Under the pieces are notes generated by a model, which saw only the letters and a program-made list of their open reading frames with translations, had not been told where the DNA came from and ran no database searches. Shown piece after piece: positions 8,479 to 16,563 of a DNA stretch of 34,110 bases. Position 1 is the first letter of the stretch. Each line of letters opens with the position of its first letter. A program made the translations under genes and the position numbers. This stretch comes from Cohaesibacteraceae bacterium (GTDB taxonomy: Bacteria > Pseudomonadota > Alphaproteobacteria > Rhizobiales > MH13): contig JANQJE010000138.1 in assembly GCA_028281795.1 (NCBI GenBank), forward strand, positions 1 through 34,110, given 5' to 3'.

Positions 8479-8586
8479 GGCATACCTTGCAAGACGATCT
8501 GGAACGGGGCTTTTAGCCGTATCGCTCCCAACAGGCAAAGCACGCCCTTTTCAAGCATTGCGGAATGCTGATACATCTTACGTGCT

Positions 8587-8775
8587 TTGGTGCCATCTGA
8601 ATGGATGGTGAAAAGGGAATGCGGTGCGCCGGTCCGGGGAAACCCATGGTCGGCAAATCCGCAGCTGCCCCCGCAACTGTGAGCGGCGCGGCGGATGCCT
8701 CAGCCACTGCCCGAAAAGGGCGGGAAGGCGCATCCACCGGACAACGCTGTGAGCCAGGAGACCTGCCAAGGCAAG
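8587..8775 (+). promoter_or_regulatory. Cobalamin (AdoCbl) riboswitch
   Basis: Conserved segments: GGTGCCATCTG..GGATGGTGAAAAGGGAA, GCAGCTGCCCCCGCAACTGTGA, and the B12-box-like TGAGCCAGGAGACCTGCC; lies directly upstream of cobU. Boundaries approximate. Confidence 0.93.
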
Positions 8776-8883
8776 AACGACAACCAGCCGGACGGGGTGT
8801 GCCGGGGCGGATACTGGGTTTGACTGGCAAGCCTTGCAGCGCCTCTCCCTTCACGGCTCCACAGATGGTCAGTGACGAGCCCC

Positions 8884-9432
8884 ATGGCGCAAGACAACAC
8901 GCCCTCACCTTTTTCCTGCACGCTCATTTTGGGCGGCCAGCGTTCCGGTAAGTCACGGCATGCCGAAGCGCTCTGCCGGGCGACGGAACTGGAGCGCGTC
9001 TACATCGCCACGGCGGCGGCCTATGACGATGAAATGCGCAACAGGATCGCGGACCATCGGACCATGCGGTCCGATGACGGCTGGCAGACAATCGAAGAAC
9101 AACACGACCTGGCGAGCGCGCTGGTGCGCGAGCTTGCTCCTGAGCAGATCGTCCTGGTCGACTGCCTCACCCTTTGGGTGACCAACCGGCTGCTGGCCGA
9201 TGCCAACATGAATGAGGAGTTTGACCGGCTGGAGGAGACGCTGCTTCAGCGTCGTGGTCCTGTGGTTCTGGTCTCCAATGAAACCGGCCTTGGCATCGTG
9301 CCGGACAATCCGCTTGCGCGCCGTTTCGGCGAGTATCAGGGCCGCCTCAATCAACGCATGGCCGCGCTGTCCACCCATGTCGATTTCGTTGCGGCGGGCC
9401 TGCCGCTGACTCTCAAGGAAACCGCTGAATGA
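8884..9432 (+). CDS. cobU: adenosylcobinamide kinase / adenosylcobinamide-phosphate guanylyltransferase
   Basis: LILGGQRSGKSRHAE P-loop, YIATAAAYDDEMRNRI, VLVDCLTLWVTNRL, VSNETGLGIVPDNPLAR. Start could also be 8872. Confidence 0.93.
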   Translation: MAQDNTPSPFSCTLILGGQRSGKSRHAEALCRATELERVYIATAAAYDDEMRNRIADHRTMRSDDGWQTIEEQHDLASALVRELAPEQIVLVDCLTLWVTNRLLADANMNEEFDRLEETLLQRRGPVVLVSNETGLGIVPDNPLARRFGEYQGRLNQRMAALSTHVDFVAAGLPLTLKETAE

Positions 9433-10487
9433 ACACCCCTATTCCCGCCACCATCATTACGGGCTTCCTGGGCGCTGGCAAAACCACGCTTATCCAGAAC
9501 CTGATCCGCAAGTCCGGCGGCAAGCGGATCGCGCTGGTGGTCAACGAGTTCGGCGATCTTGGCTTTGACGGCGAACAGATCGCCGGATGTGGCATCGAGG
9601 GCTGCAGCGAGGAGGATGTGATCGAGCTGACCAATGGCTGTATCTGCTGCACCGTCGCCGACGATTTCCTGCCAACTATGGAAATGCTTCTGGCGCGCGA
9701 CCCTGCGCCTGAACACATCGTGATCGAAACCTCCGGCCTTGCCCTGCCGCAACCGCTGGTCCAGGCCTTCAACTGGCCAAGCGTCGCTGCACGCACCACT
9801 GTCGACGGCGTGGTGACTGTTGCCGATGCCGAAGCGCTGACACACGGACTTTACGCGCCGGACCCGGCAAAGGTTGAGGCACAGCGCGCGGCTGATGAAA
9901 GCCTTGATCATGAGACACCGGTCGAAGAGCTTTTTGCCGATCAGATGCGTTGCGCCGATCTGGTGGTGCTCTCGAAAACGGATAGGCTGGCAAGCGGTGA
10001 ACTCGAAACGGTGGCGCAGTCGCTGACCGCCAAGCGTTCCGGTGTGGAAGTCGTCCACTCGACTGCGGAAGGTCTGTCCGCTGAGCTCCTGATCGGGCTC
10101 GATGCCAATGCCGAGCAGGACATGGATGGCCGCGAGGCCGGTCATCATCACCATGATCATGATCACGAACATGGACACGATGATCATCATCACCATCACG
10201 ATCACAGCCATGATGACTTCGACTCGCGGGTGATCACCCCACCACCGTTCGCATCCAAAGCCGAACTCGAAGGATATGTTTCCGCTATCTGCAACAAGCC
10301 CGGTGTTTTGCGGGTCAAAGGTGTCGTTCAGATTGTAGGGAAGGCAGCCCCGGTGGCGGTGCAGGGCGTCGGACCACGTGTGACCAGCCATTTCGATACG
10401 TCTGGCCGCCCGCAGAAGCTTGGCCTCGTGGTGATTGGAACCAGCCCGCTCGTCGACCTGTCCGATCTGGAAAGCGCGGCGGCCTAG
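9429..10487 (+). CDS. cobW: cobalamin biosynthesis protein CobW (GTPase/metallochaperone)
   Basis: TIITGFLGAGKTTLIQNLI, CXCC motif GCICCTV, His-rich loop HHHHDHDHEHGHDDHHHHHDHSHDD. ATGA overlap with cobU. Stop TAG coincides with the left end of a MITE-like element. Confidence 0.95.
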   Translation: MNTPIPATIITGFLGAGKTTLIQNLIRKSGGKRIALVVNEFGDLGFDGEQIAGCGIEGCSEEDVIELTNGCICCTVADDFLPTMEMLLARDPAPEHIVIETSGLALPQPLVQAFNWPSVAARTTVDGVVTVADAEALTHGLYAPDPAKVEAQRAADESLDHETPVEELFADQMRCADLVVLSKTDRLASGELETVAQSLTAKRSGVEVVHSTAEGLSAELLIGLDANAEQDMDGREAGHHHHDHDHEHGHDDHHHHHDHSHDDFDSRVITPPPFASKAELEGYVSAICNKPGVLRVKGVVQIVGKAAPVAVQGVGPRVTSHFDTSGRPQKLGLVVIGTSPLVDLSDLESAAA

Positions 10488-10794
10488 AGCCTGTCCTGCT
10501 TGGATTGAAGCGATTTGATGGATGAGATTGTGTGCGCCCCACAAGGAAAAGACCGCAGCGCGATGCCGCGCATCCCGCGAGGATTTTAACGCCGTGGGCG
10601 TGCACAAGATCGCCAAGCCAGAGGTCGTCACATTGCTGATACAGAACCATGTATCGCAACCGTCTGAGCTTGGTCTTTTCCGCCCCGGACAGCGTCGCGC
10701 GAAACTAACGGTGCCTGCACCGCATCGCCTCACGCTCCTTGCCGGACCAAAAAACTCCGGCGCTCAAACGGTTCAATCCAAGCAGGATAGGCTC
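10487..10794. mobile_element. MITE-like non-autonomous TIR element 1 (308 bp, TA flanks)
   Basis: Left end GAGCCTGTCCTGCTTGGATTGAA and right end TTCAATCCAAGCAGGATAGGCTC are inverted repeats with 1 mismatch. TA at 10485-10486 and 10795-10796. No convincing transposase ORF inside. Confidence 0.85.
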
Positions 10795-10797
10795 TAG

Positions 10798-13700
10798 ATG
10801 CATGTGCTTGCGGCCCAGGCTGGCCGGGTTGACGATGGCGAGGAACCGGTCGATCTCGCGCAGGCGCCAGGCGATATCGTGTTTCTGTCCGCTGCCGAGA
10901 CTGAGCTCTCTGCGTTTGCGCTGGATGCAAGGCATGCGGACCTGACATGCTCGCTGCGACTTGCCAGCCTGTTGCAGTTGAAACACCCTTATTCAGTCGA
11001 CCTCTATGTCGAGAAAACGCTGGCTCATGCCAAAGTGGTGGCTCTGCGTCTCATCGGTGGCGAGGCGTACTGGTCTTACGGTCTGGAGCGGTTGACCGCG
11101 CTTTGCCGGGGATCGGGAAAGCAGCTCATCATCGTGCCGGGAGAAACGGAGTGGGATGCTTCGCTTGCGCAGCATTCCACCGTGAACATGCCGCTGGTGC
11201 GCCGTTTCTGGCAGCTGTGTGTGGAAGGTGGCCCGACCAACCGCACCCATGCTCTGCACCTTCTGGCAGCGCTGGCTGACGGGCGGCAGCCCGATCTGCC
11301 GGATGTTGATCCCCTGCCCCGCTTTGGTCTGTGCGATCCGCAGACGTTGCAGCCGATGGAGAGCAAACCGAAGGCCGGTGCTGTGCCCATCGTTTTCTAC
11401 GCGAGTCTGCTGCAGGCTGCGACGACCGCACCGATCCGGGCACTCTGCCAGGCACTGCAAGCACGCGGGCTCGAGCCGCAACCGGTCTTCGTGCCGAGCC
11501 TGAAACAGGCCGAGGCGGTCCGGTTTCTCACCGATCTCCTGCCCGTCCTCGATCCACCTGTCATCCTCAACACCACGGCTTTCGCCTCGACCGGCACCGC
11601 GGAAGGTGCAGAAGGCGGTCCACTGAGCGTAACCGGTGCCCCGGTGATCCAGGCCGTGCTTTCCGGTCTCTCGCGGGAGGCCTGGGCAGAGAGCCTACGC
11701 GGCCTGCCCGGAACGGACCTTGTTATGCATGTCGCAATGCCGGAGCTCGACGGCCGGGCCCATGGCCGCGCGATAAGCTTCAAGCGACAAGGCGAACGCG
11801 ATCCGCTGACCGAGTTCGCGCCTGTCGACTACGCACCGGAGCCGACGCATGTCGAGGCCGTGGCATCGCTGACGGCGCGCTGGGCCAAGCTGCGTGCTCT
11901 GCCTGCTGAGAACAAAAGGGTCGCCATTGTGCTAGCCCACTATCCCACCAAAATGAGCCGCATCGGCAATGGGGTCGGACTCGACACGCCAACATCCGTT
12001 GCCCGGTTCCTCGGCGACATGGGAAACGCAGGATATCAGGTGGGCGACGCGCCACGCTCGTCAGACGCTTTGATGAATCAGTTGCTTGGTGGGCATGGCT
12101 GCGAACGGCTCACGCTTGCCGACTATCATGCCTTCTTTGCAACGCTGCCCGAGACGACGCGCCGCGACATGACGGCGCGCTGGGGTGTACCGGAAGACGA
12201 TCCTGCTATCAGGGATGCAGCCTTCGTTTTGCCGCTTCACCAGCATGGCAACACGCTGATCGGGATACAGCCCGCGCGCGGCTACAATGTCGATCCGGCG
12301 AGCACCTATCATGATCCGGACCTCGTCCCGCCGCACGGCTATCTGGCGTTCTACGCCTATCTGCAAAAGCACGCTGATGCGCTGATCCAGTTCGGTAAGC
12401 ACGGCAATCTGGAGTGGCTGCCTGGCAAGGCCCTCGCCTTGTCCGATAGCTGTTATCCAGCGGCGATCTTGGGCGATCTGCCGACACTTTACCCGTTCAC
12501 CGTCAACGACCCCGGCGAAGGGTGCCAGGCGAAGCGCCGAACCGCCTCTGTCGTGCTCGATCATCTCACACCACCGCTGACCCGCGCTGAAAGTCATGGC
12601 GCCTATCAGGAACTGGAGGCGCTGCTGGATGAATATGCCTTCGCCGAGGCGAGCGACCCAAAACGCGCCAAAGCTCTGGCAGCCGATATCGTCGGCTTCG
12701 CGCGCGAGACCGGACTGGCCGAGGATATCGGCCTGGAAGGTAAAACGAACGAAGATCTGGTGACGCTCGATACGGCGCTTTGCGATCTGAAGGAACTGCA
12801 AATCCGCGATGGCTTGCACATTTACGGACAGGCACCGGACGACGATCAGGTGGCCGATCTGCTGGTGGCCATCGCGCGACTGCCGCGCGGTTCAGCCCCA
12901 GGCGATGCCTCCTTGTTGCGCGCACTGGCGGAGGATTTCAGGCTCGACTTCGATCCGCTGACCCGCGATCTTGGCCAACCCTGGCAATTGGCGAAACCAG
13001 ACGCGTTGGCCGACGATGACGTCTGGCGCACAGTTGGCGATACAGTGGAGCGACTGGAAGGATTTGCGCGGAAACTGGTGCTTGACCAGATCGACGCTCC
13101 CGGTCCGGCATCGCGAGCCGTGTTGGACTGGATCCATGGCGTTTTGCGCCCGCGCCTTGCCCGTTGTCCTCACGATGAAACGGCCAACCTGCTCGCCGGA
13201 CTGGCCGGCCGGTTCGTGCCGCCCGGCCCATCCGGAGCGCCAAGCCGGGCGCGGCCCGACGTGCTGCCGACAGGACGGAACTTCTTTGCCGTCGACGTTC
13301 GCGCGGTGCCCTCTCCTGCGGCCTGGAGGATCGGTCAAAAGAGCGCTGAAACGCTCCTGACCCGTCATTTCCAGGACGAAGGTGTCTGGCTGCAAAGTCT
13401 CGTGCTGACCTGCTGGGGTACGGCCAATATGCGCACAGGCGGCGATGATATCGCGCAGGCGCTGGCCTTGATTGGCGCGGAACCGGAGTGGGATGGCGGG
13501 TCGGGTCGCGTGACCGGCTTCACGATCACACCGCTCTCGCAGCTACGCCGCCCGCGGGTCGACGTCACGTTGCGCATCTCCGGTTTCTTCCGTGATGCCT
13601 TCCCGCATCAGATCGACCTCTTCGACAGTGCCGTGCGGGCAGTCGCGTCGCTGGATGAACCGGCAGATATGAACCCGCTGGCCGCGCGCACCAGAGCGGA

Positions 13701-14472
13701 CTACCAGGCGCTGATCAATGCTGGCAAAAGTGCACAGGATGCGGACCGTATGGCCGGCTACCGCGTCTTCGGCTCGATGCCGGGCGCCTATGGCGCCGGG
13801 CTACAGGCGCTGATCGACGAGGGCGGCTGGACCCAGCGCTCTGACTTCGCCGAAGCGTTCATCGCCTGGGGCGGTTTTGCCTATGGCGCCGGACGGCAGG
13901 GCGATGCGGAAGAAGAGCTTCTGAAAGACCGGCTGCGCGGTGCGCAGGCCGTGGTGCAGAACCAGGACAATCGCGAGCACGATCTGCTCGACAGCGACGA
14001 CTATTACCAGTTCGAGGGCGGTCTGGCCGCGACCATCGAAACGCTGCGCGGCACAGCTCCCGTCAGCTACCACGTCGATCATTCGCGGCCCGAGTCGCCA
14101 ATGCCCCGCACGTTGCGCGAAGAGATCGGCCGGGTGGTGCGGGGCCGGGCGAGCAATCCGAAATGGATCGACGGCGTGATGCGCCATGGCTACAAAGGCG
14201 CTTTCGAAATGGCGGCGACACTGGATTATCTGTTTGCCTTTGCCGCCACGACGCATGCGGTCAGCGATCATCATTTCGACGCGCTGTTCGAGGCCTACAT
14301 TGCCGATGAAACTGTACGCGCCTTCATCCAGGAGGCCAATGCGCCCGCGCTGGATGATATGCTGGCGCGTTTCCAGGAGGCTCTAGACCGGGGGCTCTGG
14401 TCACCGCGCCGCAACACAACACAAGGGCTGATCGCAGCCCTTTCCGCATCTCAACAAGAGGCAGCCGAATGA
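10798..14472 (+). CDS. cobN: cobaltochelatase subunit CobN
   Basis: 1224 aa with CobN hallmarks (HYPTKMSRIGNGVGLDTPTS, QFGKHGNLEWLPGKALALSDSCYPAAILGDLPTLYPFTVNDPGEGCQAKRRT). Confidence 0.96.
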   Translation: MHVLAAQAGRVDDGEEPVDLAQAPGDIVFLSAAETELSAFALDARHADLTCSLRLASLLQLKHPYSVDLYVEKTLAHAKVVALRLIGGEAYWSYGLERLTALCRGSGKQLIIVPGETEWDASLAQHSTVNMPLVRRFWQLCVEGGPTNRTHALHLLAALADGRQPDLPDVDPLPRFGLCDPQTLQPMESKPKAGAVPIVFYASLLQAATTAPIRALCQALQARGLEPQPVFVPSLKQAEAVRFLTDLLPVLDPPVILNTTAFASTGTAEGAEGGPLSVTGAPVIQAVLSGLSREAWAESLRGLPGTDLVMHVAMPELDGRAHGRAISFKRQGERDPLTEFAPVDYAPEPTHVEAVASLTARWAKLRALPAENKRVAIVLAHYPTKMSRIGNGVGLDTPTSVARFLGDMGNAGYQVGDAPRSSDALMNQLLGGHGCERLTLADYHAFFATLPETTRRDMTARWGVPEDDPAIRDAAFVLPLHQHGNTLIGIQPARGYNVDPASTYHDPDLVPPHGYLAFYAYLQKHADALIQFGKHGNLEWLPGKALALSDSCYPAAILGDLPTLYPFTVNDPGEGCQAKRRTASVVLDHLTPPLTRAESHGAYQELEALLDEYAFAEASDPKRAKALAADIVGFARETGLAEDIGLEGKTNEDLVTLDTALCDLKELQIRDGLHIYGQAPDDDQVADLLVAIARLPRGSAPGDASLLRALAEDFRLDFDPLTRDLGQPWQLAKPDALADDDVWRTVGDTVERLEGFARKLVLDQIDAPGPASRAVLDWIHGVLRPRLARCPHDETANLLAGLAGRFVPPGPSGAPSRARPDVLPTGRNFFAVDVRAVPSPAAWRIGQKSAETLLTRHFQDEGVWLQSLVLTCWGTANMRTGGDDIAQALALIGAEPEWDGGSGRVTGFTITPLSQLRRPRVDVTLRISGFFRDAFPHQIDLFDSAVRAVASLDEPADMNPLAARTRADYQALINAGKSAQDADRMAGYRVFGSMPGAYGAGLQALIDEGGWTQRSDFAEAFIAWGGFAYGAGRQGDAEEELLKDRLRGAQAVVQNQDNREHDLLDSDDYYQFEGGLAATIETLRGTAPVSYHVDHSRPESPMPRTLREEIGRVVRGRASNPKWIDGVMRHGYKGAFEMAATLDYLFAFAATTHAVSDHHFDALFEAYIADETVRAFIQEANAPALDDMLARFQEALDRGLWSPRRNTTQGLIAALSASQQEAAE

Positions 14473-15098
14473 CCGACACCAGCCAAATGAGCGAAGCTGA
14501 ACTTGACGCGCGTCACGCTGAAAAAATGCGCAAAAAGAAGGCTGCGCGCGACAAGATCATCGCCACCAAGACCATCGAAAAAGGCCTGTTGATCGTTCAT
14601 ACAGGCAAGGGCAAAGGCAAATCGACAGCCGCCTTCGGCATGGTATTCCGCGCGCTCGGGCATGGCCAGCGGGTCGGCGTCATCCAGTTCGTCAAGGGCA
14701 AATGGGAGACCGGCGAAAGAGCGGTTCTGGAGCGCTTCTCCGATCTCGTCACCATCAACACCATGGGCGAAGGCTTCACCTGGGAGACGCAGGACCGTCA
14801 GCGCGATATTGCGGCGGCGGAAGCGGCCTGGGAAAAGGCCAAGCGACTGATCACAGGCGGTGAGCACAAGCTTGTCCTGCTGGATGAACTGAACATCGTG
14901 CTGCGCTATGGCTATATCGATCCTGCAACGGTCGTGCGCTTTCTGGTCGAAGAGAAACCGGAGGACGTGCATGTGGTTGTCACCGGACGCAATGCGCCGG
15001 ACGCGCTGATCGAAGCGGCCGATCTGGTCACCGAAATGACGCAGGTAAAGCACCCGTTCCGCAGTGGCGTAAAAGCGCAGGCTGGTATCGAGTTCTAA
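14469..15098 (+). CDS. cobO: cob(I)yrinic acid a,c-diamide adenosyltransferase
   Basis: [56 protein letters not shown] overlap with cobN. Confidence 0.95.
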
Positions 15099-15099
15099 G

Positions 15100-16563
15100 G
15101 TGTCTCGCACCCCCGCGCTGATGATCCAGGGCACCGGCTCGAACGTCGGTAAGTCCGTCATCGTAGCTGGGTTGTGCCGCTTGTTGGCACGCGAGGGCAT
15201 CACCGTGATGCCGTTCAAACCGCAGAACATGTCCAACAATGCCGCCGTTACATCCGATGGTGGCGAAATCGGGCGGGCGCAAGCGCTGCAGGCACAGGCG
15301 GCCAAGGCGCCCGCGAGCGTTCATATGAACCCGGTGCTTCTGAAACCACAAACCGATGTCGGCAGCCAGATCGTGGTCCAGGGCAAGGTCTGGGGCACAA
15401 TGAAAGCGGCGGAGTATGGAGCGCGCAAAGCCGAACTCATGGCACCGGTTCTGGAGAGCTTTGCCAAGCTTGAAGCTGAGGCGGACTTGATCCTCGTCGA
15501 AGGCGCGGGCAGTCCGGCGGAAATCAATCTTCGCGCCGGTGACATCGCCAATATGGGTTTCGCTAGGGCGGCTAATGTGCCGGTTGTGCTCTGCGCCGAC
15601 ATCGACCGCGGCGGAGTGATCGCAAGCGTGGTCGGGACGCACGCTCTGCTGCCGCCCGATGACCTTGCCACAATACATGGCTTCTTCATCAACCGGTTTC
15701 GCGGTGACCCATCCCTGTTCGAGGATGGACTGCACGAGATCGAAGAACGCACAGGCTGGTCCGGTTTTGGCGTGATCCCGTGGTTCGATCAGGCGCAAGA
15801 CCTGCCGGCAGAGGATGTTCTGGGGTTGGCCGATGGCGACGGGGAGGGTGTTGTCATTGCCGTTCCCCGTCTTGGCCGCATCGCAAACTTCGAAGACCTG
15901 GACCCGCTTCGTATGGAATCCGGCATTGACCTGCGGATCATCGAGCCCGGCGCACCCCTGCCGCCGGAGGCCGACTGCGTTATCCTGCCGGGCTCCAAAG
16001 CGACGATGGCAGATCTTGCAGCCTTCAAGGCCGAGGGTTGGGATATCGATCTTGCTGCCCATGTGCGGCGCGGCGGTCTCGTCGTCGGTCTCTGCGGCGG
16101 CTATCAGATGCTGGGCCGAACAGTGGCCGACCCAAACGGTGTGGAGGGCGAGGCCGGATCGATGACGGGGCTGGGACTGCTCGATGTTCAGACAGTGCTC
16201 GCCGGCGACAAGACCACACGTTTCACCAAGGGCACGGCGCGTGAAAGCGGTGCCGAGGTGAGCGGTTACGAAATCCATTTGGGTGATACGACTGGCGAGG
16301 ACTGCGCGCGCCCTATGCTCTGGCTGGACAGCGGGCCGGATGGTGCCATGACCGTCGATGGCCGGGTGATGGGAACGTATATGCACGGGGTCTTTGCATC
16401 GGACGCTTTCCGCGCCGCCTTTCTGACCCAGCTTGGTGCACGTCGCAGCGTCGCTTATCGGGCGCGCGTGGAGGCGGCGCTGGATGGATTGGCGGACCAT
16501 CTTGACAGGCATTTGGATGTCGATGGTCTTCTGGCGGTTGCTAGATGCCGGCAAGAACAATAG
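15100..16563 (+). CDS. cobQ: cobyric acid synthase
   Basis: [41 protein letters not shown], glutamine amidotransferase [22 protein letters not shown] start. Confidence 0.95.

Follow-up and report, generated by a model that had tools for sequence, protein, structure and literature searches.

REP/REPIN palindromes (RAYT, Y1 transposases) are gene-adjacent hairpins with fixed unpaired bases, for which recognition of the folded DNA is possible, and the element described here is similar in this regard. MITEs derived from IS630 prefer a CTAG-like target, as this element also does. RUP, with IS630-Spn1, is an example of an IS630-derived MITE (PMC2229807). The TA-ended MITEs of bacteria, namely NEMIS/Correia, RUP, and ERIC, are about 100–200 bp long and form one long stem-loop (PMC2229807, PMC10969869). 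The CIR elements of Caulobacter and Brucella (Chen and Shapiro 2003) are portrayed, in the accounts drawn on here, as sequences of about 110 bp without a TIR stem and with a conserved GANTC at the arm loop (PMC2229807, PMC10969869).

The locus considered here lies in a window of 34,110 nucleotides, that is, the whole stretch of Cohaesibacteraceae DNA that was analysed. Behind a cobalamin riboswitch is an operon with the order cobU-cobW-cobN-cobO-cobQ/cobB type, and an element of 308 bp, with TA on each flank, separates cobW from cobN. The left end of the element, GAGCCTGTCCTGCTTGGATTGAA, is mismatched to the reverse complement of its right end at one of 23 positions, and the inverted repeat continues to 32 nt at 91% identity. 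The layout of the locus is as follows.

8571–8784, + strand: cobalamin riboswitch upstream of the operon (Rfam RF00174, 133.8 bits)
8872–9432, + strand: cobU (Pfam CobU)
9429–10487, + strand: cobW (Pfam cobW and CobW_C); its stop TAG, 10485–10487, is the target TA followed by G, the first base of the element
10485–10486, no strand: TA target duplication, left copy
10487–10794, + strand: foldback element of 308 bp, very probably a MITE, with a predicted Y-shaped fold
10487–10509, + strand: left TIR, the 5′ strand of the outer stem; pairing runs on to about 10518
10536–10598, + strand: left-arm tip, a motif conserved class-wide (match to covariance model R1 at L001:1557–1619, 73.8 bits)
10622–10656, no strand: hypervariable centre separating the two half-units, with approximate limits (column identity 0.70–0.79 vs 0.89–0.97 elsewhere)
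10686–10747, − strand: right-arm tip, a weak inverted homologue of the left-arm tip (R1 on the − strand with 20.6 bits and E 0.02; relatives have a strong match)
10772–10794, − strand: right TIR, the 3′ strand of the outer stem; contains the AGGA upstream of cobN
10795–10796, no strand: TA target duplication, right copy
10798–14472, + strand: cobN (Pfam CobN-Mg_chel)
14469–15098, + strand: cobO (Pfam CobA_CobO_BtuR)
15100–16563, + strand: cobQ/cobB-type glutamine amidotransferase gene (Pfam CbiA and GATase_3)

An earlier note on this DNA had described a 308-bp element with 23-bp TIRs, one mismatch, and TA flanks between cobW and cobN, and the coordinates and the TIR comparison agree with it. 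The tight junctions that it reported elsewhere in the operon are confirmed, with the genes verified by Pfam: cobU/cobW and cobN/cobO are 4-nt ATGA overlaps, and cobO and cobQ have a gap of 1 nt. It had further deduced that the ancestral cobW stop directly abutted the cobN ATG. Such an empty site is seen in G003, a genome of the same genus, in which the uninterrupted junction reads GCAGCC-TAA-ATG-CAC, with 0 nt between the cobW stop TAA and the cobN ATG. In a second congener, G002, the junction reads TAA-C-ATG, and one base separates stop and start. Relatives thus have empty junctions, abutting or 1 nt wide, and not a shared 300-bp spacer of non-repetitive sequence.

The source genome is a 3.33-Mb draft of 298 contigs, 79% complete. 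BLASTN searches with the element in this genome and its relatives show that the sequence is multicopy, as an insertion reading expects, and not single-copy. About 38 further places in the source genome match it, the best of them with E about 1e-110, far above chance, and the full copies are 80–88% identical to the window copy. Eighteen full copies have pairwise identities of 81–95.5%, and the TIR pattern occurs at 54 sites, against 0 for a reversed control. The flanks of the copies are unrelated past the TA. A genome from a different family within the order, G064, has 7 copies, the complete single-contig genome G043 has 71 TIR sites, and the element is absent from three same-genus genomes, G003 and G002 among them. 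Many of the copies in the source genome are found at contig ends (e.g., C74, C225, C247, C286), so its copy number is a lower bound; the draft assembly was probably broken at the element repeats. By its copy number, its unrelated flanks, its TA duplication, and the empty site in a relative, the element is mobile DNA. The earlier label of a MITE-like insertion, which the multiple copies, the TA duplication, and the relatives with an empty site bear out, is correct, and it understates the Y-shaped fold.

The predicted fold of family members follows one plan: the TIRs form an outer stem from which a left arm and a right arm extend, giving a Y, and this Y was found in nearly all two-ended elements (one element examined per genome). 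The window copy has a folding energy of −150.7 kcal/mol (z −9.2). Outer-stem positions are 98% paired across 24 full copies and reach a covariation score of 0.165 vs 0.085 for shuffled columns and 0.016–0.041 for slid partners; columns 15, 17, and 18 have three or four pair types each. In 60 GAGC-ended elements, Watson-Crick pairing at outer-stem positions 7–30 is 86% within a copy vs 57% for arms exchanged between copies. Six copies in genome G334 have only 49% of the left-arm sequence in common, and each arm nevertheless pairs with its own partner, at 93% overall. The centre of the element (window 10622–10656; A1 columns about 140–175) has about 35–40 hypervariable nt in copies that are otherwise well conserved, as if it were an unconstrained linker joining the two half-units.

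The left-arm tip reads about CCGCAGCGCGATGCnGCGCATCGGGCAAGG. The covariance model of this tip, R1, has 14 of 21 pairs covarying. Among 79 distinct tips, in an alignment fitted to R1, 95.8% of cells are paired and the covariation score is 0.523 vs 0.173 shuffled; a MAFFT alignment of 21 tips gives 0.358 vs 0.148 shuffled, in agreement. Across the class, the arm tip keeps a fixed 3x2 loop and a 1x1 mismatch. The alignment lacks the tandem G-A pairs that a kink-turn requires, and this reading of the tip loop was therefore rejected. A Rfam scan of the element and of loci in 16 relatives gave no family at the gathering threshold. The right arm, too, is matched by R1, on the opposite strand: the match is strong in L281 (62 bits) and L283 (50 bits) and weak in other elements, the window copy among them. 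The element is thus composed of two inverted half-units, each an outer-stem strand and a hairpin arm, in a predicted Y. Beyond the terminal TA-GAGC and the arm tips, the sequence is nearly free, but base pairing is retained.

The two arms differ in the kind of mismatch that they tolerate. In the left arm, single G-T mismatches exceed A-C mismatches by 69:37, and in the right arm the ratio is reversed, 23:71 (Fisher 9e-9 by cells, 6e-4 by genome-position events). It seems that each arm is tuned to fold on whichever strand is read inwards from that arm's end of the element. An opposite wobble bias of this kind suits two DNA ends, or the nascent RNA of genes on either side, and argues against a function on a single RNA strand. 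A role as + strand RNA only, which was the first reading of the G-U excess of the window copies, was given up because the right arm is opposite and the MFE of the whole element is strand-neutral.

Members of the family, about 260–310 bp long, are spread across Alphaproteobacteria. Within the order, R1 has matches in 72 of 397 genomes and in 50 of 141 genera; a class-wide sample gave matches in 38 of 385 genomes, 37 of them from other Alphaproteobacterial orders. Weak BLAST matches led to elements in other genomes with unrelated stem sequences and an identical plan. Only the terminal TA-GAGC is broadly fixed among the ends. A second end type, ATACCAA...TTGGTAT, accompanies the same Y core (L178, L181, L262–L265, L269, L280–L282, L320), and G334 carries both this and the GAGC type. 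A third, unrelated end type, TAGCAGGCTGTTGAAGAACTCA, is present in the Y element L323 of genome G199. There are also single-arm derivatives of about 140–185 bp, with the left arm only (L222/L313, L280, L307, L316, L321) or the right arm only (L184, L193), some of which are nearly perfect long hairpins; their form suggests the loss of a half-unit through recombination or template switching. Plasmid searches with divergent members found none, and with the window element as query the only plasmid was one from Hoeflea. This plasmid, from Hoeflea sp. IMCC20628 (NZ_CP011480.1), carries the diverged member L341, from 2481, with no annotated feature over the element.

The target of insertion is YTAR in 46 of 55 joined sites, 24 of them CTAG, and the misfit of about 15% of insertions is due in part to decay. 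In 23 of 55 insertions, the target TAR is the exact end of an ORF of 250 aa or more, compared with 7 of 120 YTAR sites taken from the flanks as controls (Fisher 2e-8); this control does not entirely distinguish targeting from survival. Leaving out sites within long open frames gives 23/44 vs 7/60 (7e-6), with copies from the same genome not fully independent. Full-length, real genes have their stop at the element's TAG, namely those for xylose isomerase (model position 435/435), DUF924, MlaE, rhomboid, and CobW. On the Hoeflea plasmid, the stop of an independently annotated TRAP permease CDS is likewise the element's TAG. Since the element begins with G and finishes with C, TA plus G gives TAG in either direction. 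Insertions are thus found preferentially at YTAR, often at a TAA or TAG stop, and the first base, G, regenerates TAG for genes on both sides. This explains how the element can lie between two cob genes without damage to either protein. The insertion point that the earlier note gave, the cobW/cobN junction, is right; more precisely, it is the cobW stop codon, a target of the kind the family prefers and not a chance junction. In the source genome, copies seemed strongly biased in their orientation relative to the gene upstream, but over all genomes the counts were 14 vs 10 and the bias was gone.

The folding predictions bear on the expression of cobN. The 18 nt that precede the cobN ATG, which hold the sole Shine-Dalgarno-like sequence, AGGA, are fully paired in the predicted outer stem (unpaired probability about 0). 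Once the element is removed and the empty site rejoined, the bases immediately before the cobN ATG are predicted to be mostly open. The window copy has paired, two-sided changes in its TIRs (10487–10509 and 10772–10794) at A1 columns 7/308 and 12/303, from A-U to C-G and from U-A to C-G. Through them, CAAGATATGC has become CAGGATAGGC immediately ahead of the cobN ATG, and the AGGA has arisen, which lies sequestered in the stem. We propose that the insertion would abolish the 0-nt coupling of cobW and cobN, place a structure of about −150 kcal/mol in the mRNA, and bury the cobN initiation region. With coupling lost, structure added, and initiation buried, there would be an even chance that cobN is expressed below cobW, unless processing or readthrough compensates.

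What moves the element was sought in several genomes. The TIR pattern revealed no autonomous partner in G000 (the source genome), G064, G043, G082, G116, or G145, and in the complete G043, paired TIR sites are only about 150–280 bp apart. The IS630-type DDE_3 domain (PF13358) had no match in the source genome or G064. For DDE_Tnp_1 (PF01609, IS5/IS427), the source genome had no match and G064 only a single fragment, below threshold and containing a stop; an intact IS4/IS5 family transposase had no match in either genome.

We consider it very probable that the element is a non-autonomous, TA-duplicating foldback MITE of an Alphaproteobacteria-wide family, taken together with the whole explanation proposed here. 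As for its movement, a transposase acting in trans may read the short TA-GAGC end and the folded or palindromic DNA of the arms, and not a long TIR sequence; this step is plausible, at somewhat less than an even chance. We infer structure-based recognition from the covariation, and copying from arm to arm could also yield matching arms. More broadly, and more tentatively, there may be a class-wide mobile lineage whose heritable identity is a folded shape and not a sequence. Such a lineage would consist of inverted hairpin half-units recognised by structure, as folded DNA or RNA; it would insert into stop codons that are then rebuilt, and its mover would read only a 4–6 nt end and the fold.

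The features that this lineage is meant to explain have been weighed against other origins. The elements could be ordinary MITEs of several TA-targeting IS (IS630, IS5/IS427, and others) whose parents are lost, with the arms as leftovers and the folds incidental to long inverted repeats. The TA duplication, the CTAG-like target, and the presence of several end types even in one genome fit this origin, and MITEs frequently outlive their parent IS. However, the arm tip is class-conserved with strong covariation while the ends differ, and shared transposase ends would give the opposite; moreover, G000, G064, and G043 have no TIR-sharing IS, and G000 and G064 no IS630 or intact IS4/IS5 match. We regard this origin as rather unlikely. 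On the unlikely side too is a purely mutational source of the covariation, in which template switching in replication copies arm onto arm (quasipalindrome correction), so that the covariation is a by-product and not a sign of selection for structure. The match of the arms inside each copy regardless of sequence, and the existence of nearly perfect single-arm hairpins (L222/L313), are what such copying would leave, but the tip has the same 3x2 loop and 1x1 mismatch throughout the class, and simple correction does not predict that the direction of the wobble-type mismatches differs between the arms.

Unlikely as well, and slightly more so in our judgement, is that the element acts as RNA, with a transcript running inward past the stop codon and folding an arm, stabilising or terminating mRNA from both sides, and with hosts retaining copies at gene ends. 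The stop-codon placement of copies and the extreme RNA stability of the element are in keeping with this, as is the G-T excess, which the left arm shows on the + strand and the right arm on the − strand, in each case the strand transcribed inward from that end. Folded single-stranded DNA, however, leads one to expect the same wobble bias; the MFE has no whole-element strand preference (16/28 genomes), and the patchy presence, with three congeners lacking the element, points to a mobile parasite rather than a retained regulator. That the element is an assembly artefact or a chance inverted repeat is virtually impossible, since, fragmented draft of 298 contigs as the source genome is, this is already refuted by the about 38 diverged copies, the better assembled carriers, including the single-contig G043, and the empty site in a congener.

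The reading that we prefer, a foldback MITE with a free stem sequence and conserved pairing, makes structure-based recognition testable. Insertion at a stop-codon TA with the TAG rebuilt amounts to a safe-landing rule. The very strong mRNA structures that it places directly behind genes could change operon stoichiometry, and for the cobW/cobN insertion a congener with the empty site offers a natural control.

No Rfam family describes these elements, and a literature search that covered few subscription journals yielded general papers on MITEs and CIR but no publication describing the family. With NEMIS/Correia, RUP, and ERIC, the element shares a short, non-coding sequence, TIRs, TA ends, transcripts predicted to be highly paired, and a mostly intergenic location (PMC2229807, PMC10969869). 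In contrast to them, its family is 260–310 bp long and has an outer stem with two inverted-homologue arms, a free but paired stem, and a class-conserved tip. IS630-derived MITEs share the TA duplication, but here neither G000 nor G064 has an IS630-type transposase or an IS sharing the TIRs. Unlike REP/REPIN, the element has a TA duplication, which speaks against RAYT, and a long TIR stem. The CIR elements are, like it, Alphaproteobacterial intergenic repeats, and the RNA models given for them have two linker-joined arms (PMC2229807). As these descriptions present CIR, at about 110 bp, the element is set apart by its 308 bp and its 32-nt TIR stem, a separation drawn from the descriptions and not from CIR sequence. 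Its size, its Y shape, its inverted-homologue arms, its free but paired stem, and its stop-codon preference distinguish the family from both the TA-ended MITEs and CIR.
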